Shown piece after piece: positions 1,297 to 42,616 of a DNA stretch of 64,000 nucleotides; the stretch's first letter is position 1; every line of letters starts with the position of its first letter. The notes under the pieces were generated by a model that had not been told where the DNA came from, searched no databases, and saw only the letters and a list, made by a program, of their open reading frames with translations. Origin of the DNA: Phoenicibacter congonensis (lineage in GTDB: Bacteria > Actinomycetota > Coriobacteriia > Coriobacteriales > Eggerthellaceae); assembly GCF_900169485.1 (NCBI RefSeq), contig NZ_LT821227.1, positions 806,001-870,000 of the forward strand, written 5' to 3'. The translations under genes were made by a program, and so were the position numbers.

Positions 1297-1845
1297 GTGG
1301 ATTCTGATTCCTTAGTAAAGAGCGACGCTAAAATTATTTCAATCAACATTTCAAAGAAAAAAGGAACGAAGAAAAAACCGGTTGGAGATGAACCTGTTGA
1401 GTTACTTTTAGACTTTGGTATACAAAACGATGCTCATGCTGGAGATTGGCACAGGCAAGTCTCTTTTTTGGCTGATGAGTCAATTCAAAAAGTTCGTGAT
1501 GCTGGACTAAATGTCGGTTGTGGTGATTTTGCTGAAAACTTCACTACAGTTGGCGTTGATTTAAAAAACATTCCTCTTGGAACAATGCTTTTGCTTGGTG
1601 ATGAAGTGGAAGTTGAGATTAGCCAAATTGGAAAAGTGTGCCACACAAAGTGTGCAATTTATCATTTGATGGGAGATTGCATTTTCCCGCACGAAGGAAT
1701 TTTTGCTGTTGTTAGAAAACCGGGCAAAGTTAAAGCAGGCGATTCTATAAAGATGATAAAGCTTGGTGATGGCACTTGCGATGCAACGCCACCTGAGGCT
1801 CTGCGCGAACTAGAAGAAGCTCGGAATGCCTACAACAAGAAATAG
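1297..1845 (+). CDS. MOSC domain-containing protein
   Basis: 182 residues from GTG 1297, chosen because GAGGG (1286-1290) lies 6 bases upstream; a TTG at 1291 is too close to that SD. The sequence matches stand-alone MOSC (molybdenum cofactor sulfurase C-terminal) proteins: a GIQNDAHAG segment, then GDFAENFTT, then a conserved Cys region (GKVCHTKCAIYHLMGDC) and GIFAVV near the end. MOSC domains bind Moco or other sulfur-ligated metal cofactors and act in Moco sulfuration or reductases; the stand-alone actinobacterial forms have no firmly known substrate. Divergence from modA supports a role in molybdenum cofactor use. The N-terminus is rich in Lys. Confidence 0.85.
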   Translation: MDSDSLVKSDAKIISINISKKKGTKKKPVGDEPVELLLDFGIQNDAHAGDWHRQVSFLADESIQKVRDAGLNVGCGDFAENFTTVGVDLKNIPLGTMLLLGDEVEVEISQIGKVCHTKCAIYHLMGDCIFPHEGIFAVVRKPGKVKAGDSIKMIKLGDGTCDATPPEALRELEEARNAYNKK

Positions 1846-1849
1846 TTTC

Positions 1850-1867
1850 TTTTGGCATTGGCCAAAA
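1850..1867 (+). terminator. Weak hairpin after the MOSC gene
   Basis: TTTTGGC (1850-1856) pairs with GCCAAAA (1861-1867) around a 4-base loop, starting 5 bases after the MOSC stop. There is no clear downstream T-run, so termination is uncertain. Confidence 0.3.
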
Positions 1868-2001
1868 AGTTGATTGTAAGTGTCATAGCTACATAACGAT
1901 GGATTTTTACTTGTCTTAATATAAAATTAGTTGAACTGGTGGTGGTTTTTAGTTAGCACTCGCGTGTCTCTTTTTTGAGAAGCTAGAGCAAGGAGTAAAA
2001 G

Positions 2002-2100
2002 ATGACTACGACTGGCCGATTTAAATCTATGACCATGTGCTTTATCTTTCATGTGCCGCGTTATTGCTTTTCTCTAGCTAAAAAGAATAATGTGCATTAA
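2002..2100 (+). CDS. Putative 32-residue leader peptide
   Basis: ATG 2002 follows a near-perfect SD AAGGAG (1990-1995) at 6 bases. The 32-codon frame starts MTTTGRFKSM, then MCFIFHVPRYCF, and ends at TAA 2098-2100. The stop codon lies inside the 5' arm of a strong rho-independent terminator (2099-2129). AGCTAGAG (1981-1988, just before the SD) is complementary to CTCTAGCT (2072-2079, near the end of the frame), so a long-range helix could enclose the SD and the ORF. SD, tiny ORF and terminator in this order are the layout of ribosome-mediated transcription attenuation. I do not recognise the peptide. It could instead be a spurious frame in an untranslated leader. Confidence 0.5.
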   Translation: MTTTGRFKSMTMCFIFHVPRYCFSLAKKNNVH

Positions 2101-2129
2101 CGCTGCGGTAATTACCGCGGCGTTTTTTT
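2099..2129 (+). terminator. Strong rho-independent terminator or attenuator
   Basis: Stem AACGC-T-GCGGT / ACCGC-G-GCGTT (2099-2124) closes on a 4-base loop and runs into seven Ts (2123-2129). It lies directly after the 32-codon ORF and 51 bases before the surface-protein start, hence a candidate attenuator for that gene. Confidence 0.8.
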
Positions 2130-2180
2130 ATTTTTTCCTTGGTTTTGGTTTTTAGGATCGGTTTGAATGGGGAGATGTTG

Positions 2181-3929
2181 ATGAGAAGAATACTTAGTTT
2201 TGCGATGGCGTTTTTCCTGTCTTTTTCTTTGTTGCCAACGGTAGCATTTGCAGAAGACGAAGGACTTGCTCTCGGAATGCCTGAGATTACAAAAAACCTA
2301 ACTGACAATAAAGGCACCGTTGTTGGGTTTGACTCGCAAGAGTGGTACGTAATTGGTGATCATGAAACTGGAGTTAACCCACTACCTTCGAATTTGACTT
2401 TGCTTCATAAGCTCGATGTTCACGATCAAAGCAGCTCGTTGCGCTATGGCGCTAGTCCCTATCGAGAGGTCGCCTATTTGCCTCCACTAAATGGAGAATA
2501 TCCAAAGTTTAGGGACGTAATTGGACAACGTTTTGCTTTGTATACCGATGCGAATGGTGATGTTGTTCATGTGCGCGACTCTGCAACTGGTGAAGTTTTC
2601 CCAGAGGTTGTTTATTTTGATGTCAATTTTGATGCGCCTTTAACTGATCCAGGTTATGACAGTCCAAATGATTACTATGGTTGCACAATTCAACAGCACC
2701 TTGAATTTGTTGGAGAATACATTGTGTTCGACCGTGAAAGCACCTTAATTACTCCGCGCACCCTCACTTCTCAAAACGATGATATTGCTGGCAAGGATGT
2801 TTCCAAACAGAAGCTGTGGAATTTGTCCAAAGTTGAGGCTGAGTCCTGCAGAGGAGCTTCTAACCATTATTTCGCAGGTGCCACGTGGCTCAGATCTCCT
2901 GGAACCGATTCTTTAGGAGAGATTGCACCAGATTTAGTTCAATACTATTATTCAGGTGGAAATTATGGGTTTACCAATTCTGAAAGAATTTATACTGAGC
3001 ACGGCACTAAACAAGGCAATGTTTTTAAGCCAGACCAAGATTTGATTACACCGATTCGTCCTGCCTTCAACCTAAATGTAGAAAATGTTCTTTTTGCAAC
3101 ATCAGCTAGCGGTGAACATGGAAAATCACAAGATGTGAGAAGAATGAAAGATTTCAATAGTCTCCAAGCGGGCAGTGATTTGCGCAAAGACGGCGACCCA
3201 ATCAAGTTTACAATGGCTGACAAGGAAAAGCAAACGCTAAACATCGATAATCCAAATGCAACTGTTACAGTCACAGACGGGAAAGGTGTTGTTAATTATT
3301 CCAACGCTGCAACAGGCGTCAATCAATATATTTCATGTGTAATTGCGTCTAACGATGGCAATAATATTTTGTATTACGCCAAACTCGTTGATTGTTCAAG
3401 GGATGGAAGTGCTTCTGGAGAGATAACTATTGGAGTTCCAAATGAACTTCTTGATGGCACCTATTCAATGCATTTGTTTTCTGAACAGGATAACGGCGAA
3501 AATTCGACCGACTTTGCAGGACAAAGAATACAGCTCAATTTCGACAAGGTTGAAACGTACACTGTCACCTATCATGATGGCTTAGATGGTGAAGTGTTTG
3601 AGCCTGAAAGCTATTCGGGGCTAAGAGCTGGCGATCCGACTCCGAAGTTTAAGGGAAACACCGAGCGCCATGGTTTCAGATTTGATGGGTGGGACCCTGA
3701 GTGGAGCGAAACAGTAACTGGCAGTGTCACTCATGTTGCTAAATGGACATATGTTGGAACTGGAGATGCTGATGGTAGAAAAGACCCTGCAAAACCTGCG
3801 CCTATTGCAGGAGTTACAACCCCAAAAACTGGAGATAGCATTAATTTTGCATTGCTAGCTTCAGTGTTGCTTTTAAGTGGGATTACTCTAGTGGGAGCCG
3901 CGCACTTCATACAAAACAAAAGGGATTAA
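2181..3929 (+). CDS. Secreted surface protein: DUF6273-like region, InlB-type repeat, TPKTGD sorting signal
   Basis: 582 residues from ATG 2181 (GGGGAG at 2169-2174, 6 bases upstream; ATG 2175 abuts the SD). Residues 1-24 form a signal peptide ending TVAFA. The middle part carries the pattern seen in DUF6273-type surface domains: EWYVIG, then ATWLRSPG, then IRPAFNLN. A Listeria-Bacteroides (InlB B) repeat follows (YTVTYHDG ... FDGWDPEW ... VAKW). The C-terminus has TPKTGDS, a hydrophobic helix and a basic tail (QNKRD), the three-part sortase signal with Thr replacing the usual Leu of LPXTG. It should be covalently wall-anchored. Ligand unknown. The gene stands alone behind a putative attenuator leader, and a terminator follows at 4051. 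Confidence 0.85.
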   Translation: MRRILSFAMAFFLSFSLLPTVAFAEDEGLALGMPEITKNLTDNKGTVVGFDSQEWYVIGDHETGVNPLPSNLTLLHKLDVHDQSSSLRYGASPYREVAYLPPLNGEYPKFRDVIGQRFALYTDANGDVVHVRDSATGEVFPEVVYFDVNFDAPLTDPGYDSPNDYYGCTIQQHLEFVGEYIVFDRESTLITPRTLTSQNDDIAGKDVSKQKLWNLSKVEAESCRGASNHYFAGATWLRSPGTDSLGEIAPDLVQYYYSGGNYGFTNSERIYTEHGTKQGNVFKPDQDLITPIRPAFNLNVENVLFATSASGEHGKSQDVRRMKDFNSLQAGSDLRKDGDPIKFTMADKEKQTLNIDNPNATVTVTDGKGVVNYSNAATGVNQYISCVIASNDGNNILYYAKLVDCSRDGSASGEITIGVPNELLDGTYSMHLFSEQDNGENSTDFAGQRIQLNFDKVETYTVTYHDGLDGEVFEPESYSGLRAGDPTPKFKGNTERHGFRFDGWDPEWSETVTGSVTHVAKWTYVGTGDADGRKDPAKPAPIAGVTTPKTGDSINFALLASVLLLSGITLVGAAHFIQNKRD

Positions 3930-4050
3930 GCCTTGTTGGCGAGTTGGAAAGTGCCATCAAATTAACAAAACGCTTTAGAAAACGCCATTAGTTTTTTTAC
4001 GTAATGTGTTCAGCTCAAATGGAGTTAAGTCTTTTAAAGAAACAATTCAT

Positions 4051-4085
4051 GCGGGTGAGAGGGAAATTTTTCACCCGTTTTTTAT
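4051..4085 (+). terminator. Terminator of the surface-protein gene
   Basis: CGGGTGA pairs with TCACCCG around a 13-base loop and is followed by TTTTTTATT. It lies about 120 bases downstream of the surface-protein stop. Confidence 0.75.
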
Positions 4086-4261
4086 TATCTAGCTCAAACT
4101 ATCTAATAATTTGTCTTAACTTCACGTGAATCATTCTGAGTCGATAATTGAACGCTCAGTGTGCTTTTTAAAATCAACAGTATTTAGAAACTAATGTCTT
4201 TTGGAATGTAATTCTTGAACCAAAAACTAACCAACATCTAGTTTTGAAACTTTGCAATTGG

Positions 4262-4279
4262 AAAAAAGAGGTGCCTCTT
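4262..4279 (-). terminator. Terminator downstream of tRNA-Leu
   Basis: On the minus strand AAGAG-GCAC-CTCTT (4279-4266) runs directly into further Ts (complement of the A-run 4262-4267). It lies about 70 bases after the tRNA-Leu 3' end. Confidence 0.6.
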
Positions 4280-4350
4280 ATACGTTTTTTGTCGCTTTAG
4301 ACTATTTTTAAAAGAAGTTTTTAGAGCTTAAAAAATGGTGTTTTACCAGG

Positions 4351-4434
4351 TGGTAGGGGTGAAGGGATTCGAACCCTTAAGCCGCGAGGCGGCGGATTTT
4401 AAGTCCGCTGTGTATGCCGTTCCACCACACCCCC
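4351..4434 (-). tRNA. tRNA-Leu (anticodon UAA)
   Basis: Reads GGGGGTG at its 5' end and ends in encoded CCA. The anticodon stem GCGGA/TCCGC closes a loop CTTAAAA, giving anticodon TAA (codon UUA). A variable arm (GCCTCGCGGC) and the T-loop TTCGAAT are present, the class II layout of Leu tRNAs. The first acceptor pair is G-T(U). It lies 18 bases downstream of the peptidoglycan-binding gene in the same direction. Confidence 0.95.
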
Positions 4435-33191: not shown

Positions 33192-34037
33192 GTGGCAAAA
33201 ATTCTTTTGGGGAAACCCGTTGCAGATGCAATTTATTCAGACATTGATTCGCGTGTAAACAAGCTGTGCGAAAAGGGAATTTCACCTTGCCTTTGCTTGG
33301 TGAGAATTGGAAGCGACCCGGCCTCACAATCATATGAAAACTCTTTAGTTAAAAAAGCAGAAGAACACGGCATAGTCGTGAAGCGATTTGATTATGAAGA
33401 ACTAACCCAACCGCAATTTGAAGATTTAATAAATAAAATCAACGACGATGATTCTATTCATGGTTGTCTAGTTTTTCAGCCACTTCCAGACTTTTTAGAT
33501 GCTAGTGTTTTGCAATCAACCCTTGACTCCGGCAAAGACATCGATTGTATAACAGACACAAATTCTGCCAAGATTTACTCTAATTCCGACTGCGTGTTTG
33601 TTCCAGCAACTGCGCAAAGTTGTCTTGAAATCCTTGATTATTATGGTTTCGATGTAACAGGAAAAAACGTTGTTATAGCAGGGCGTTCTTTAGTTGTAGG
33701 TCGGCCGCTGTCTATGCTTTTGCTTCATCGTCATGCAACGGTCACAATTACTCACTCCAAAACTGAAAACTTGGAGAAAACCATGAAAGACGCCGACATT
33801 GTTGTTTTGGCAACAGGACGCGCCAACGCCTTCACACCCGAGTTTTTTTCTGAAGGTCAAGTTGTCATCGATGTTGCAACTAATGTTGGCGCTGATGGCA
33901 AACTCACTGGAGATGCTGATTTCGAATCGGTTGAGCCAATAGTTGGTGCCATCACGCCGGTTCCTCGTGGTGTTGGAAGTGTGACAACATCTGTGATGCT
34001 CAAATTCGTTTGCTGCGCAGCCGAGAGGTGTGTCTAA
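33192..34037 (+). CDS. folD: Bifunctional methylene-THF dehydrogenase / methenyl-THF cyclohydrolase FolD
   Basis: 281 residues from GTG 33192, 4 bases after fchA; longer upstream frame overlaps fchA and is unlikely. FolD signatures: RIGSDPASQSYENSLVKKAEEHG (catalytic Tyr and Lys kept, the Lys two residues before Ala), VFQPLPDFLD, GKDIDCI (usual GKDVDG) and the NAD(P)-binding VIAGRSLVVGRPLSMLL, then PVPRGVGSVTTSVML. The presence of fchA could make its cyclohydrolase activity redundant. Next gene starts 3 bases later. Confidence 0.93.
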   Translation: MAKILLGKPVADAIYSDIDSRVNKLCEKGISPCLCLVRIGSDPASQSYENSLVKKAEEHGIVVKRFDYEELTQPQFEDLINKINDDDSIHGCLVFQPLPDFLDASVLQSTLDSGKDIDCITDTNSAKIYSNSDCVFVPATAQSCLEILDYYGFDVTGKNVVIAGRSLVVGRPLSMLLLHRHATVTITHSKTENLEKTMKDADIVVLATGRANAFTPEFFSEGQVVIDVATNVGADGKLTGDADFESVEPIVGAITPVPRGVGSVTTSVMLKFVCCAAERCV

Positions 34038-34040
34038 ATC

Positions 34041-36977
34041 ATGCAGAAATTCAAAATTTCCTCGATTCATGAGCTAGATGAATGTGCCAGTGCTTTTGCA
34101 AGTTTGCTCAAACCTGGAACAACAGTCCTTTTGGAAGGCCAGCTTGGAAGTGGAAAATCTGAATTCGTGCGTCATGTGGCAGCGCATCTTGGCGTGTCAG
34201 AAGAAGTTATGAGTCCAACATTTTGTTTTGTAAACGACTACTGTGCAGACAATTTCAATGTTTATCATTTTGACCTTTATCGTCTTAATTCAGAAGATGA
34301 ATTGTCAGAGATAGGCTTCGACGAACATGGATACAATCCAATAGACGGGGTCTCTTTTATAGAATGGTCAAATCTCTATCCCGATTCTATGCCTGAAGAA
34401 GCCATTAAATTGACTTTTGAAGGGCAGGGAGATGAGCCACGTGAGATCGCTGTTGAAGCTTATGGGAAAACTTCTTGTGAAATGGCAGACAAATGGCTTG
34501 CTAACAACAACAGAAAGTTTGTTCTTGCTTTTGACACCTCTAACGAAAAAGTGATCTTGGGACTTGCCGAGATTGGCCTAAACATTGCAAATAACGAAGA
34601 TAATCCGTCGAGTGTTTGTGTGGAGGAAACTCAAACTAACAATTCTCATTGCAATTCTAATCAAGAGCTTTCTAGCGGTGTTTTAGATGCCATAAAAGAA
34701 AAAGACAAGGACCCGGAGTGCTTGAGTGAAAGTTCTGCCCCAAAAGTCTTGATTAAATCGATTTTTCAAAAATCTATTGATTCAAAACGTGCTTCGAATC
34801 AAAAACTATTGCCAGAAATCGACATTCTTCTAAAAGAAAACCATGTTAACAAAAGTGAGATTGTTGCAATTGGTGTGGGTCGTGGGCCTGGATCATTTAC
34901 TGGTGTTAGAATTGCACTCGCTAGTGCTAAAGGAATTTGCTCTGCCCTAAATGTTCCTCTTTATGGGATTTCTACTCTCGATGCAGTAGCTGAAAATCTG
35001 CGCTTGAGCGGCAAGTTTGGGGACACTCTTGTTGTTGCCGATGCAATGCGCGGCGAAGTTTATCCCGTTGAATATGATGTTAAAAACAACACAATAAACA
35101 GAAAAAATGCTGACACTGTTGCAAAGCCTCAAGCTTTTGTGGACTCACACAACGTTTTGCAAGGCATGGCAGTTTGTGGTGATGGACTCATAAAGCACAA
35201 ACACTATTTCGAAGAAAAATATCATCTTTTAGATGAGTGTTTTTGGTACCCAACGGGGCAAAGCCTTGTTTCTCTTTTAGTTCAGCAAATGAATGAGGCA
35301 CTCGATTGGCAGTCGTCATTGATTCATAATGCGAGCAAAGTTTTGCCTGTATACACTCGTCTTTCCGATGCAGAGGAAAACGAACTGTCTCACATCTTGC
35401 AAAACAAGACAAAAGATCTTGTCACTGGTGTTCATGGTGACGACACGCAAATTTCAATTTCACCTGTCAAGCTTGATGATTGCAAAATTCTAGCCGAATT
35501 TGAGAAGTGCAATTTTGGAAGTGACGCATGGAGTGAAAACAGTTTTAAGACTGATGTGTGCGATTCAAACCGCGTTTGGTTAAAAGGCGTGATTAACAGC
35601 ACGATTGTCGGATATGTTGGCGCTTCAAGAAGTTCATCTGATGCTGACATTCTAAAAATTTGTGTTGATCCAAAATTTCGCAAACAAGGGATAGCTCGCC
35701 GGCTTTTGAGCGCTGCCTTTGAAACGTTACGCAATTTAGGCGCTTCAAATGTTATGCTCGAGGTTCGTGTTTCAAACTCGCCTGCCAGAGCACTTTATGA
35801 GTCTTTAGGGTTTAGCGAAGTTTGCACTCGCAAAAACTTCTATGGAAACGAAGACGCCGTTAGCTATTCGCTCGACATCTCAAATTTTTCTGCAAATGAG
35901 GAATTTGTTGAAGCTGATTCTCTTTTAAAGCCCAATGCACGCAAGCCTTTAATTTTTGCAATTGAATCGTCTTGCGATGAAACTGCTGGTGCGATTGTGG
36001 ATGGAGAGGACTCTATTATTTCAAATGTAGTTTCTTCATCAGCAAAATTTCATGCACGTTTCGGTGGTGTTGTCCCAGAAATTGCAAGCAGAAAACACAT
36101 TGAAGTCATATCTCAAGTCGCAGAAGAAACACTTCGTCTTGCAGGCATGAAAAACTATGATTCAATCGATGCTGTCGCTGTCACTGCAAAACCAGGGCTA
36201 GTTGGATCTCTTGTTGTGGGTCTAGCCTTTGCCAAAGGAGTCGCATGGGGGGCTAACAAGCCGTTGATTCTTGTTGACCATCTGGTTGGTCATTTGTTTG
36301 CAAACAAGCTTTGTTCTGACTCAATTAAAATGCCGTGTGTTGCCTCACTCATTTCTGGTGGAAACACCATGCTTGTTCTTGTGCGTGATTGGGGCGACTA
36401 TGAGGTGATCGGCGGGACAATTGACGATGCAGTGGGGGAGGCTTTTGATAAAGTTGCAAGGGCAATGAACTTGCCCTATCCTGGAGGACCTGAAATTTCA
36501 GCGCTTGCAAAGGAAGGCAACGCCGATAATGTGGAACTTCCGCGACCTCTTCTGCACAGCCACGATTTGAGAATGAGTCTCTCGGGTCTAAAAACTGCAG
36601 TTATTCTTGAAATTGAGCGCTTGAAAAAAGAGAATGCCGATGGACGTCTGACCCGCCAAAACATGTGTGACATTTGTGCCTCTTTTGAACAGAGCATTTG
36701 TGATGTTCAAGTTGCAAAAGCTCACGATGCCTTAGTAAACACGCATGCAAAGACTTTCTGCTTTGGTGGTGGAGTAGCAGCGAACCGCCAGTTGAGACGT
36801 GCATATTCAGAAATGTGTGACAATCTTGGAGTTAGCTTTTGCGTTGCTCCGACAGATGTTTGTGGTGACAACGCAGCAATGATTGGATTGGCTGCTCAAT
36901 TTGAATTTAAAAACAAACGATTCGCTTCTCTTGATGCCGATGTCAGCTCTTCATCTCGCCTAAATTCGCGTAGGTAA
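34041..36977 (+). CDS. TsaE-TsaB-RimI-TsaD four-domain fusion (t6A tRNA modification plus GNAT acetyltransferase)
   Basis: 978 residues in one open frame; GAGGTG SD before ATG 34041. Domain order: TsaE ATPase ~1-150 (Walker A GQLGSGKS 33-40, MSPTFCFVNDY, HFDLYRL); TsaB ~158-460 (FDTSNEKVILGLAE, GRGPGSFTGVRIALASAKG) with a polar 185-240 insertion; RimI GNAT ~472-613 (VDPKFRKQGIARRLL acetyl-CoA loop, SNSPARALYESLGF); TsaD/Kae1 ~635-978 (IESSCDETAGAIVDG, metal-binding HLVGH 747-751, CGDNAAMIG). TsaB, TsaD and TsaE transfer threonylcarbamoyl to A37 of ANN-decoding tRNAs; TsaC is not seen. TsaB-RimI and RimI-TsaD fusions are known, and all four in one chain is notable. Confidence 0.93.
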   Translation: MQKFKISSIHELDECASAFASLLKPGTTVLLEGQLGSGKSEFVRHVAAHLGVSEEVMSPTFCFVNDYCADNFNVYHFDLYRLNSEDELSEIGFDEHGYNPIDGVSFIEWSNLYPDSMPEEAIKLTFEGQGDEPREIAVEAYGKTSCEMADKWLANNNRKFVLAFDTSNEKVILGLAEIGLNIANNEDNPSSVCVEETQTNNSHCNSNQELSSGVLDAIKEKDKDPECLSESSAPKVLIKSIFQKSIDSKRASNQKLLPEIDILLKENHVNKSEIVAIGVGRGPGSFTGVRIALASAKGICSALNVPLYGISTLDAVAENLRLSGKFGDTLVVADAMRGEVYPVEYDVKNNTINRKNADTVAKPQAFVDSHNVLQGMAVCGDGLIKHKHYFEEKYHLLDECFWYPTGQSLVSLLVQQMNEALDWQSSLIHNASKVLPVYTRLSDAEENELSHILQNKTKDLVTGVHGDDTQISISPVKLDDCKILAEFEKCNFGSDAWSENSFKTDVCDSNRVWLKGVINSTIVGYVGASRSSSDADILKICVDPKFRKQGIARRLLSAAFETLRNLGASNVMLEVRVSNSPARALYESLGFSEVCTRKNFYGNEDAVSYSLDISNFSANEEFVEADSLLKPNARKPLIFAIESSCDETAGAIVDGEDSIISNVVSSSAKFHARFGGVVPEIASRKHIEVISQVAEETLRLAGMKNYDSIDAVAVTAKPGLVGSLVVGLAFAKGVAWGANKPLILVDHLVGHLFANKLCSDSIKMPCVASLISGGNTMLVLVRDWGDYEVIGGTIDDAVGEAFDKVARAMNLPYPGGPEISALAKEGNADNVELPRPLLHSHDLRMSLSGLKTAVILEIERLKKENADGRLTRQNMCDICASFEQSICDVQVAKAHDALVNTHAKTFCFGGGVAANRQLRRAYSEMCDNLGVSFCVAPTDVCGDNAAMIGLAAQFEFKNKRFASLDADVSSSSRLNSRR

Positions 36978-38145: not shown

Positions 38146-39921
38146 ATGTTGCATAGCGATTCTAATGATACCCTTGCATGTGGTATTGATGTTGGATCTA
38201 CCACAGTTAAATGTGTTGTTTTAAATGACAACAATGATGTTTTGTGGAGCGTCTATCAGCGTCACATGAGCGATGTTAGAGCAACGGTAAGAGACGTTCT
38301 AGAGCAAGCACAAGAGCAGTTTCCAGATTCTCTAATGTCAATCGCTATCACCGGTTCTGGTGGATTGTTGTTGGCAGAGGCTTTAAAGGTTCCTTTCGTT
38401 CAGGAAGTCATAGCTAACAAAACAGCTGTTGAAACTCTCATTCCCTCAACCGATGTCGCCATCGAACTTGGTGGGGAAGATGCAAAAATAGTTTATTTTG
38501 ACAATTCTATTGAGCAACGAATGAATGGAACTTGTGCTGGTGGTACAGGCGCTTTTATCGATCAAATGGCATCGCTTTTAAATACCGATGCTGCTGGTCT
38601 AAATGAACTTGCTAAATCTCACACAATCATTTATCCAATTGCTTCAAGATGCGGGGTATTTGCGAAAACCGATGTTCAACCTTTGTTAAACGAGGGTGCG
38701 AAGCGTGAAGACATTGCAGCTTCTATTTTTCAATCTGTAGTAACTCAAACAATTTCGGGTCTTGCATGCGGCAGACCAATTAGGGGAAACGTTGCTTTTT
38801 TGGGTGGTCCTCTTCAATATCTAAGCGAGCTGCGCAAGCGTTTCTATGAAACTCTTGAGCTCACCGATGATGAAATCATCGTTCCTGAAAATGCACATTT
38901 ATTTGTGGCAACGGGCTGTGCAATTGCCTCGAAAAAGGAAGACTTTGAACCGTCTAAATTAGGTGATATCCTTGATCGTTTTTCAAAAGTTGGGACAATT
39001 CAGGGTTCAGAAGTTGAAAGACTGCCACCTCTCTTTAAAGACGAGGAAGACTATAGAGAATTTAGGTGCAGACATGATGCTGAAAAAGTGAAAAAATGCT
39101 CGATCGATGGTTATGAGGGCCCTGTGTTTCTTGGCATTGATGCCGGGTCGACCACCTTTAAAGCTGCAATTGTAAACGACAAAAAAGAACTCATGTGGAC
39201 GACCTATGCATCAAATAAGGGTGATGTTTTGGGTTGCGCAAAAGCAGCTCTCACTGAACTCTATGGATTGCTTGGTGATAAAGTCTTTATTGGTCACTCG
39301 ACAGTGACTGGCTATGGAGAGGGACTCCTTTTGCAGGCGTTAAAAGTTGACTCAGGCGAAATCGAAACAGTTGCGCATCTTCGTGGTGCCCAAGAATTGA
39401 TGCCTGACGTTGAATTTATTCTTGACATCGGTGGTCAAGATATGAAGTGTTTGCGTGTTAAAAATGGAGTCATTGACCACATTATGCTAAATGAGGCATG
39501 TTCGAGTGGATGCGGAAGTTTCATTGAGTCATTTGCCTCGGGTCTTGGTCTTTCAGTGCATGAGTTTGCAGAAGCTGCATGTAAAGCAAAAGCCCCAGTT
39601 GACCTTGGCTCTCGCTGCACTGTGTTTATGAATTCTCGTGTAAAGCAAGCTCAAAAAGAAGGCGCAGCTGTTGAAGACATTGCTGCTGGTCTTGCCATTT
39701 CTGTGATTAAAAATGCTCTTTTTAAAGTAATTAAAATTAGAGACCCAAAAGATGTTGGCAAGCATGTTATTGTGCAGGGTGGCACTTTCTTAAACGATGC
39801 TGTTTTGCGTGCATTCGAACAACTTTCGCATGTAAATGCAGTTAGGCCCGACATAGCAGGAAACATGGGGGCATATGGCGCAGCTCTTCTTGCCCATGAG
39901 CGTTGGGAGAAGGGAGAATAA
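38146..39921 (+). CDS. Tandem BadF/BadG/BcrA/BcrD-type ATPase (2-hydroxyacyl-CoA dehydratase activase-like)
   Basis: 591 residues; SD AAAGGAA before ATG 38146. Two activase modules: module 1 (1-~290) with [26 protein letters not shown] and [11 protein letters not shown]; module 2 (~325-591) with [28 protein letters not shown] and [11 protein letters not shown]. Each module keeps both Cys that, in HgdC-type dimers, bridge one [4Fe-4S] cluster, so two clusters may form per chain. Activases use ATP to push an electron into a dehydratase. The next gene, one base away, carries the partner regions normally in the same polypeptide. Confidence 0.88.
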
Positions 39922-39922
39922 A

Positions 39923-42616
39923 GTGGCTAAAGTCAGAAAATCTTCCATTCTTGGAATTGATGAATTAAATAAATTAAATCCATCGCACAAAACTGTCAGG
40001 TGCAAAGGTTGTTCAAACTCGTGTCTTTTGACAATCAATGATTTTGGAATTGACGAAAAAACTGGAAAACACAGAAGATTCATTACTGGCAACAGATGCG
40101 AACGCGGTCAGTCGATGGGTGAGAGACGTGTGAAAAATAATGTTCCGAATTTGTTTGAGTGGAAAAGTTCGCGCCTTTTTGATTACTACACTCCTCTAGA
40201 TGAAAAAGATGCGCCTGCTGGCACTGTTGGCTTGCCTCGGGCTTTGAATATGTATGAGAATTACCCGTTTTGGTTTACTTTTTTTACAAAACTTGGCTAT
40301 CGGGTAATTCTGTCTGACAAATCAAGCAAAGATATTTATAACGCTGGCATTGAGTCAATGCCTTCGGAAAGTGTTTGTTATCCAGCTAAGCTTTCCCACG
40401 GGCACATTATGAATTTGCTAGAAAAACCCGTTGATTTTATTTGGATGCCGTGCACAAAATGGGAACGTGGAGAAGATGAAACTGCTGGCAATCATTTCAA
40501 TTGCCCAATCGTGGCAAGTTATCCTGAAGCTTTGCGTTTAAACATCGACGAGCTAATAAATTCTGACATTCAGCTCATCACCCCATGGGTTCCCTATGAC
40601 AAAAAAGACAAATTAAAAAAGCGCCTTTTTGAAATTATTACAAAAGAGCATAAAGCTGAGATGTGCAAGAATGGCGTTGTTCCAACAAAAAAACAAATTG
40701 AAGATGCAGTCGATTGTGCATGGGCAGAAGATGAAAACTTCAAGCGAGACATTCGCATTAAGGGAACTGAAACTTTAAAGTGGATGGAAGAAACTGGCAC
40801 GCACGGCATTGTTTTGGCTGGGCGTCCCTATCATCAAGATCCCGAAATAAATCATGCGATACCTGAACTTCTGAACTCTTTTGGGCTTGCAGTTTTAACC
40901 GAAGACTCTATTGCTCACCTTGGCCAGCTCGAACGTCCAATTCGTGTTGTCGACCAATGGATGTATCACACGCGTCTATATGCTGCGGCAAAAGTGGCAG
41001 CCAAACGAAGCGACCTTGATTTAATTCAGCTAAATTCTTTTGGTTGTGGTCTTGATGCCCTGACAACCGACCAGGTCCAAGAAATTTTAGAGTCGGCTGG
41101 AAAAGTTTACACTGTCCTTAAAATTGATGAGGTTTCAAATCTTGGTGCAGCAAAGATTCGTGTCAGAAGTTTGCTCGCTGCTTTAAAAGATAAAGCTGAT
41201 GAAATTAATGAAGTTAAAGACGAAAAGGCTGCTATTGAGCGTGGGTGCCCTGTGAGCTGCTTGTCATCAGTAGACATTAAAGAACTCATCCCCGACTTGC
41301 CAACCGAAAAGTCGGTCATTGCAGACACCGATGAAGTTGGTGACAGAGAGTCGGTTACCACTGAGTTTGGCAGACCTGAGTTCACTAAGAAGATGTTTGA
41401 TGAGGGCTACAAAATCTTGGCTCCCCAAATGGCTCCGATGCATTTCGAATTGCTCGTTCCGATTTTTGATCGCTTCGGATTCAATGTTGACCTTTTACCT
41501 TCTGTGGACCATGAAGCAGTTAATTATGGCTTGAAATATGTTAATAATGACATTTGTTACCCTTCAATTCTTGTGACGGGTCAAATAATGGAAGCTGTGC
41601 TTTCTGGTCGCTATGACACAAACAAGCTGGCTGTTTTAATCACTCAAACTGGCGGAGGTTGTCGAGCAACAAACTACATCGCGCTCATCAGAAAAGCACT
41701 TAAAGCAGCAGGTCTTGGCCACATCCCAGTTATTGCATTGAGTTTTAAGGACCTAGGCGAACACAATTCTGGATTTAAGCTATCTCCAAAAATGCTTTTG
41801 CAGGCAGGCTATGCCATTTTCCTTGGCGATTTGTTAATGCAATGTTTATATAAAACTCGTGCCTATGAACTCGAGAAAGGTTCAGCCAACAACATATTCA
41901 GCCACTGGACGGAAGAATGCAAAAAGGCGCTTCGAAAGGGAGTTTCGAGAAGTGACTTTAAGCGTTTGTCTGAAGACATAATTGCCGATTTTGACAATCT
42001 TCCAATTGATGATTCTGTTAAAAAACCAAAAGTTGGTGTGGTGGGAGAGATTCTCGTTAAGTTCCATCCAACTGCAAACAACAACATTACTGACAAGATT
42101 GAAGAAGAAAACTGCGAAGTTGTTGTTCCAGGCTTAACAGAATTTTTCTTGTTTGGGCTTGTAGGAGGCATTTTCCAGCAAGAAATTGGAAGACCTAAAA
42201 AGTCGGAACTTGGTTCAAAACTTGGGCTTGCAGCAGTAAGAAAGATTAGACAACCGTTAGTTGAAGCATTAAAGAATTCAAACCGTTTTGAGCCACCAAC
42301 TGACATTCTTGAACTCGGGGAATATGCTTCTGAAGTTTTGAGCCTTTGCAATTCAATGGGTGAAGGTTGGCTTTTGACAGCCGAGATGGTTGAACTAATT
42401 AAGTCTGGTTGCCCAAACATTGTTTGCACGCAGCCTTTTGCATGTCTGCCAAATCATGTTGTCGGCAAGGCTGTCATTAAAGAACTTCGCAGGAAATATC
42501 CAAAAAGCAACATTGTTGCTGTCGACTATGACCCTGGTGCATCAGAGGTAAATCAGCTAAACAGAATCAAGCTCATGATTGCAGTTGCAAAATCTAACCT
42601 TGAAGCAGGTCTTTAA
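39923..42616 (+). CDS. Activase-associated protein: DUF2229 and dehydratase-like (HgdB-type) regions
   Basis: 897 residues from GTG 39923 (GGAG 6 bases upstream), one base after the activase gene. N-terminus has a CKGCSNSC cluster-like motif; residues ~100-330 fit DUF2229 (VGLPRALNMYENYPFW ... ESVCYPAKLSHGH), and the rest fits the HgdB-like part (VLITQTGGGCRATNY, VVGEILVKFHP, CTQPFACLPNHV). Well-conserved Cys throughout suggest Fe-S clusters. Many anaerobes encode these together with the activases as one 1400-1500-residue protein; the split here may be ancestral or derived. The chemistry is unknown; amino-acid fermentation is one possibility. Confidence 0.85.
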   Translation: MAKVRKSSILGIDELNKLNPSHKTVRCKGCSNSCLLTINDFGIDEKTGKHRRFITGNRCERGQSMGERRVKNNVPNLFEWKSSRLFDYYTPLDEKDAPAGTVGLPRALNMYENYPFWFTFFTKLGYRVILSDKSSKDIYNAGIESMPSESVCYPAKLSHGHIMNLLEKPVDFIWMPCTKWERGEDETAGNHFNCPIVASYPEALRLNIDELINSDIQLITPWVPYDKKDKLKKRLFEIITKEHKAEMCKNGVVPTKKQIEDAVDCAWAEDENFKRDIRIKGTETLKWMEETGTHGIVLAGRPYHQDPEINHAIPELLNSFGLAVLTEDSIAHLGQLERPIRVVDQWMYHTRLYAAAKVAAKRSDLDLIQLNSFGCGLDALTTDQVQEILESAGKVYTVLKIDEVSNLGAAKIRVRSLLAALKDKADEINEVKDEKAAIERGCPVSCLSSVDIKELIPDLPTEKSVIADTDEVGDRESVTTEFGRPEFTKKMFDEGYKILAPQMAPMHFELLVPIFDRFGFNVDLLPSVDHEAVNYGLKYVNNDICYPSILVTGQIMEAVLSGRYDTNKLAVLITQTGGGCRATNYIALIRKALKAAGLGHIPVIALSFKDLGEHNSGFKLSPKMLLQAGYAIFLGDLLMQCLYKTRAYELEKGSANNIFSHWTEECKKALRKGVSRSDFKRLSEDIIADFDNLPIDDSVKKPKVGVVGEILVKFHPTANNNITDKIEEENCEVVVPGLTEFFLFGLVGGIFQQEIGRPKKSELGSKLGLAAVRKIRQPLVEALKNSNRFEPPTDILELGEYASEVLSLCNSMGEGWLLTAEMVELIKSGCPNIVCTQPFACLPNHVVGKAVIKELRRKYPKSNIVAVDYDPGASEVNQLNRIKLMIAVAKSNLEAGL

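Follow-up and report, generated by a model that had tools for sequence, protein, structure and literature searches.

A single open reading frame in the genome of Phoenicibacter congonensis joins the proteins TsaE, TsaB, RimI and TsaD. It lies on the + strand at 34041..36977 of the window, which is the whole stretch of 64,000 nucleotides that was analyzed, and runs from an ATG to a TAA through 978 codons that specify 978 amino acids. These four proteins are usually separate, with three of them responsible for an essential tRNA modification and one acetylating a ribosomal protein. The presence of all four in one frame, which an earlier note had described, is confirmed. The source genome is that of a gut-type actinobacterium in the order Coriobacteriales, and it is assigned to the Eggerthellaceae since its family code, f1, includes a locus 100% identical to Adlercreutzia sp. 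ZJ176 (code f10 holds Collinsella, and f4 a close relative of Thermophilibacter). On the best reading, which we judge to be probably correct, the product is a t6A transferase made as one chain, in which TsaE is tethered and RimI is carried as a passenger; translation as one chain, activity and the docking cycle are inferred. No second copy of the 978-aa protein was found, as no other match at E <= 0.001 exists across the 1.45-Mb genome.

The domains were assigned with the curated NCBIfam equivalog cut-offs, with Pfam in agreement, and all of them are on the + strand. The first is a TsaE (YjeE-type ATPase) domain at residues 1-157 (34041..34511), which scores 101.5 bits against TIGR00150 (cut-off 60.1, residues 10-140) and 110 bits against PF02367. 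It is followed by a TsaB domain at residues 159-455 (34515..35405) that scores 150.8 bits against TIGR03725 (cut-off 69.3, residues 162-440) in two stretches flanking an insert, and that also has a fold match to YeaZ chains. A RimI (bS18-alanine N-acetyltransferase) domain at residues 470-612 (35448..35876) reaches 101.4 bits with TIGR01575 (cut-off 86.4, residues 482-605) and can be aligned to the solved RimI structures 5isv and 2cnm. The last is a TsaD (YgjD/Kae1-like transferase) domain at residues 636-978 (35946..36974) with a TIGR03723 score of 401.1 bits (cut-off 296.1, residues 638-956). All four cut-offs are passed, which bears out the claim of the earlier note that the four parts are intact.

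The key motifs of each domain are present, and most of them are invariant across 10 aligned TsaE-containing fusions. TsaE has a Walker A motif (G33-Q-L-G-S-G-K-S40), SPTF at 58-61, D78 (DLYR) and E108-W109, and TsaB has GRGPGSFTGVR at 280-290, in which GPGSFTGVR (282-290) is the GPGxxTGxR motif. The catalytic Glu and Tyr of RimI are E574 (LEVR) and Y586 (ALYESLGF). The HxxxH...D metal site of TsaD is formed by H747xxxH751 and D943. These positions are consistent with alignments to solved TsaE, RimI and TsaD chains. The TsaD domain also carries SGGNT (residues 772-776), a motif that occurs in 33 of 48 Coriobacteriales proteins and reads SGGHT in most other bacteria compared.

An AF2 model built from 77 aligned relatives has four folded domains (mean pLDDT 86.4, pTM 0.76), with folds that match YgjD, YeaZ and YdiB. 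The best fold match of the TsaD domain is E. coli YgjD (4wq5, TM 0.93 normalised by target). Model confidence is low only at the TsaB insert (187-229) and at the inter-domain linkers 460-469 and 618-629. The last TsaE helix (143-156) is predicted to lead into the first TsaB strand (159-165) through a joint of about two residues. The insert, a polar segment of about 53 aa that is in frame and specific to the window (residues ~182-234, 34584..34742, +), would sit at the tip of the beta2-beta3 hairpin, between modeled strands 170-181 and 235-247. The segment that contains it is 79 aa long in the window, and the corresponding segment is 26 aa long in G001, a relative of the same genus, and in most others. 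The lack of an insert in G001 and the pLDDT of <50 at 187-229 support the earlier view that a polar stretch at 185-240 is a flexible, non-conserved insertion.

The triple fusion is ordinary in Coriobacteriales, and a survey of ~274 genomes of the order with >= 90% completeness indicates that the form containing TsaE is rare and recurrent. TsaB, RimI and TsaD share one ORF at most of the loci inspected, including those of Slackia, Rubneribacter, Adlercreutzia, Collinsella and Thermophilibacter, so the triple fusion is indeed a precedent as had been proposed. TsaE is a separate ORF at most of these loci, and as a rule its gene either immediately precedes tsaB or overlaps it. It is fused in the same frame in 12 of the ~274 genomes: the source genome (G000), G009, G222, eight species of the genus g57, and G049, which belongs to another family. 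One of the g57 fusions (G265) is interrupted by a contig end past RimI. The inclusion of TsaE, which had been singled out as the striking part, is therefore unusual but not unique, since these 12 genomes span five genera. No TsaE fusion occurs in about 145 other genomes of the phylum, and in an even draw of 158 phylum genomes the source genome is the only one with such a fusion. It is also absent among the 80 loci listed from genome contigs, which are the loci that cover genomes outside the phylum.

Several other gene arrangements were encountered in this survey. G183 (780 aa), G203, G022, G216, G081 and G145 have long TsaE frames that were rejected as TsaB fusions because they are GC-rich N-terminal extensions or overlaps. 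A uracil-DNA glycosylase domain is in frame with TsaE in a Coriobacteriia MAG (L109, 2838-3944, +). TsaB-TsaD ORFs in which a RimI domain was undetected are found in two other Coriobacteriales families (L063 in G026 and L065 in G029).

A tree of the TsaB-RimI-TsaD part from 48 loci, made by a quick method with the insert columns omitted, requires five changes of the TsaE-fused state, and at least four of these are forced by well-supported branches. The window and G001 form their own long, well-supported branch with a weak deeper placement. Fusion to TsaE thus appears, from these comparisons, to have arisen several times within the Coriobacteriales. In comparisons between g57 species, the domains have dN/dS values of about 0.1-0.25, indicating purifying selection, and the TsaE-TsaB linker evolves nearly freely (dN ~0.9-1.2, the closest pair excepted). 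This pattern of constrained domains and a nearly free linker is what would be expected for a flexible tether that joins working domains.

The fusion of TsaE could instead have come about by neutral chance among closely packed genes and have no effect on mechanism, with the linker proteolysed or TsaE acting as if it were free. We regard this alternative as unlikely, though it deserves the most serious consideration. Given the usual position of tsaE in Coriobacteriales, one mutation, or a few, would be enough to fuse it to tsaB, and the TsaE-TsaB linkers of the other fused species, which are about 20-75 aa long, are unrelated to each other in sequence and wholly different in length. However, the fusion is retained in all eight g57 species examined, where every domain is under purifying selection. 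The joint of about two residues between secondary-structure elements predicted for the window would also give a protease little to cut and TsaE little freedom to move.

The TsaE-TsaB junction is at residues 157-158 (34509..34514, +) within GCTAACAACAACAGAAAG, as located by comparison with G001 and by the AF2 model. G001 is 69% identical across the shared part. It has GCATAATGGCTAAAAAC at the junction, where the stop and start codons overlap as TAATG, and its tsaE end and tsaB start read GCATAATGGCT where the window has GCTAACAACAACAGAAAG. Relative to G001, the window has a net gain of 1 nt, both the TAA and the ATG are gone, and the two frames are joined. The fusion probably arose by this loss of an overlapping tsaE stop and tsaB start.

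Translation of the full chain may begin at the ATG at 34041, which is 4 nt downstream of the folD stop codon. It is preceded by a plausible Shine-Dalgarno-like sequence, GAGAGG (34023..34028, +), with a predicted anti-SD duplex energy of -8.4 kcal/mol. The median for in-frame ATGs of the ORF is -2.3 kcal/mol. Internal starts at the domain borders are not likely from the sequence. The only in-frame ATG near the TsaE-TsaB border, and the only start codon there with any Shine-Dalgarno pairing, is codon 148 (-4.2 kcal/mol versus -8.4 for the true start), the only start codon near the TsaB-RimI border is TTG453 (-3.3 kcal/mol), and there are none in codons 600-645 ahead of TsaD.

If codon 148 or reinitiation were used, then a shorter TsaB-RimI-TsaD protein would be made beside the full chain and complexes free of TsaE would also exist. 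This ATG is 10 codons ahead of the TsaB strand, and ancestrally the genus had the stop and start coupled as TAATG. We nevertheless consider a second product improbable. The Shine-Dalgarno pairing at codon 148 is weak, and no stop codon is left that could prompt reinitiation. Two fused relatives have a TsaE-TsaB linker with no ATG, GTG or TTG at all, and a TsaB started separately there would consequently lack part of its first strand.

It is quite improbable that a one-base sequencing or assembly error has joined two overlapping genes in the source genome. A single extra base at GC|TAAC would give TsaE its stop back exactly as in G001, and an overlapping TTG could then serve to start TsaB. However, the junction is no homopolymer, and the ATG of G001 is also lost, so there has been more than one change. 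The genome is a single contig of 1.45 Mb that is 99.7% complete, and ORFs of >=90 aa tile 95% of the length of the window (GC content 42.6%), which gives no sign of many indel errors. The same fusion also recurs in other genera, and this recurrence stands regardless of the outcome for the source genome.

A suspicious split gene 3 kb downstream was considered as a sign of indel errors and rejected, because G001 has the same split. It encodes an acyl-CoA dehydratase activase-type protein in two + strand ORFs at 38146-39921 (591 aa) and 39875-42616 (about 900 aa, with a likely GTG start near 39923). In eight relatives this protein is one ORF of about 1400-1630 aa, and in G001 it is interrupted at the same place. 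The split at 38146-42616 is, by this comparison, a real gene fission adjoining the gene fusion.

There is only the slimmest chance that the fused TsaE is degenerate and purely structural, with reset achieved otherwise: the Thermotoga TsaD-TsaB complex has basal activity without TsaE (PMC9654439), but the Walker A, SPTF, D78 and E108-W109 motifs are kept and are invariant among fused relatives, and no second TsaE was found in the source genome.

The RimI domain in the window looks intact from its sequence. The S18 protein of the source genome begins MADYKRQ, which makes Ala position 1 once Met is removed, and no other RimI in this genome scores above the TIGR01575 cut-off. A RimI-less chain occurs in G009, where a 969-aa TsaE-TsaB-TsaD ORF (L033, G009:C10:46500-53000, at 1494-4403) has a Gln-rich linker in the place of RimI, and no RimI elsewhere in that genome is over the cut-off. 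The proposal in the earlier note that the fusion ties t6A synthesis to S18 acetylation is doubtful on this evidence. Because G009 keeps the rest of the chain without RimI, this domain is more likely to be a passenger than a functional link.

No report of a fusion containing TsaE was found in the open-access literature searched, although protein databases may hold unremarked sequences. The closest precedent is the YeaZ::RimI::YgjD (TsaB-RimI-TsaD) fusion of Coriobacterium glomerans reported in 2013 (SyntTax, PMC3571937), which comes from the same bacterial order and has the same domain order but lacks TsaE. Identical gene order is also found in the tsaE-tsaB-rimI-tsaD operons of Mycobacterium tuberculosis, Bacillus and Selenomonas (PMC5335608, PMC4926160), where the genes are separate or only part-fused (RimI-TsaD, TsaB-RimI). 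Two further systems have other modules in one chain. TsaN (PDB 8ide), a modular TsaD-TsaC-Sua5-TcdA enzyme attributed to Pandoraviruses in PMC11077089, is also a multi-domain t6A-pathway protein, but it has the TC-AMP synthase joined to TsaD, acts on nucleotides and contains no TsaB, TsaE or RimI. The archaeal Kae1-Bud32 fusion MJ1130 (PDB 2vwb, 3en9) likewise combines a TsaD-family transferase with an ATP-hydrolysing partner, but Bud32 is a kinase-like ATPase that is unrelated to TsaE and is C-terminal to Kae1.

The TsaB-TsaD-TsaE complexes of E. coli and Thermotoga maritima (PMC4330362; PDB 4ydu, 6n9a, 6s84) have the same three families and motifs and are 1:1:1 when bound to ATP. In E. coli, TsaE binds TsaB-TsaD 1:1:1 with AMPPNP (Kd 0.6 uM) and does not bind with ADP (PMC4330362). 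In thermophiles, TsaE and tRNA are mutually exclusive on one TsaD-TsaB unit (PMC11648230). TsaE has also been described as resetting TsaD with every turn (PMC9654439). TsaE as known from these studies acts as a dissociating factor (PMC4330362, PMC9654439, PMC11648230), which counts against the reading of a working tethered chain. The TsaE of E. coli and T. maritima is a protein of its own that competes with tRNA and departs together with ADP, whereas that of the window is covalently fixed to TsaB in frame with no intervening stop. A fixed 1:1:1 ratio is predicted to follow from the single chain, and it would be the same as that of the E. coli complex (PMC4330362). The oddity is the lost release of TsaE and not the stoichiometry.

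In the proposed working model, TC-AMP would be made by TsaC, which is encoded elsewhere as a separate 187-aa gene (G000:C1:1184889-1185452). An apparent extra TsaC copy at G000:C1:27065 was rejected as the YrdC domain of HypF; this protein (L173) has both YrdC-like and Kae1-like domains. The TsaD domain would transfer the threonylcarbamoyl group to A37 of the tRNA, partnered by the TsaB domain of its own chain or of a second chain. TsaE, held to TsaB by its two-residue joint, would dock with ATP, and RimI, a passenger from the old operon order, could still acetylate S18.

Since TsaE normally competes with tRNA and departs once ATP has been hydrolysed, the fusion raises the question of whether release is needed. 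A TsaE fixed to TsaB must, after hydrolysis, either swing clear of its site or work on the partner chain in a dimer, in both cases without diffusing away, and tRNA could then bind. The swing is the simpler option, and action on the other chain would fit the modeled TsaD2B2-TsaE-tRNA state. We tentatively suggest, at somewhat less than an even chance, that the bacterial t6A transferase can function while TsaE stays permanently tethered and that release of ADP-TsaE into solution is not essential. TsaE would swing, or it would reset the neighboring chain of a dimer in which one chain holds TsaE and the other holds tRNA, as modeled for thermophilic TsaD2B2.

The chain with TsaE is a rare, recurrent extension of a known triple fusion and not a new kind of system, and it serves as a useful experiment of nature on how TsaE cycles. 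It would offer a single-gene enzyme of fixed ratio for structures of tRNA-bound states in an essential bacterial pathway, and in the RimI-less chain of G009 the t6A part stands apart from the acetyltransferase. TsaE is thought to bind and leave TsaB-TsaD in an ATP-dependent manner, competing with tRNA (PMC4330362, PMC11648230). A natural chain that keeps TsaE from leaving, made several times independently, is a direct test of this leave-and-compete model.
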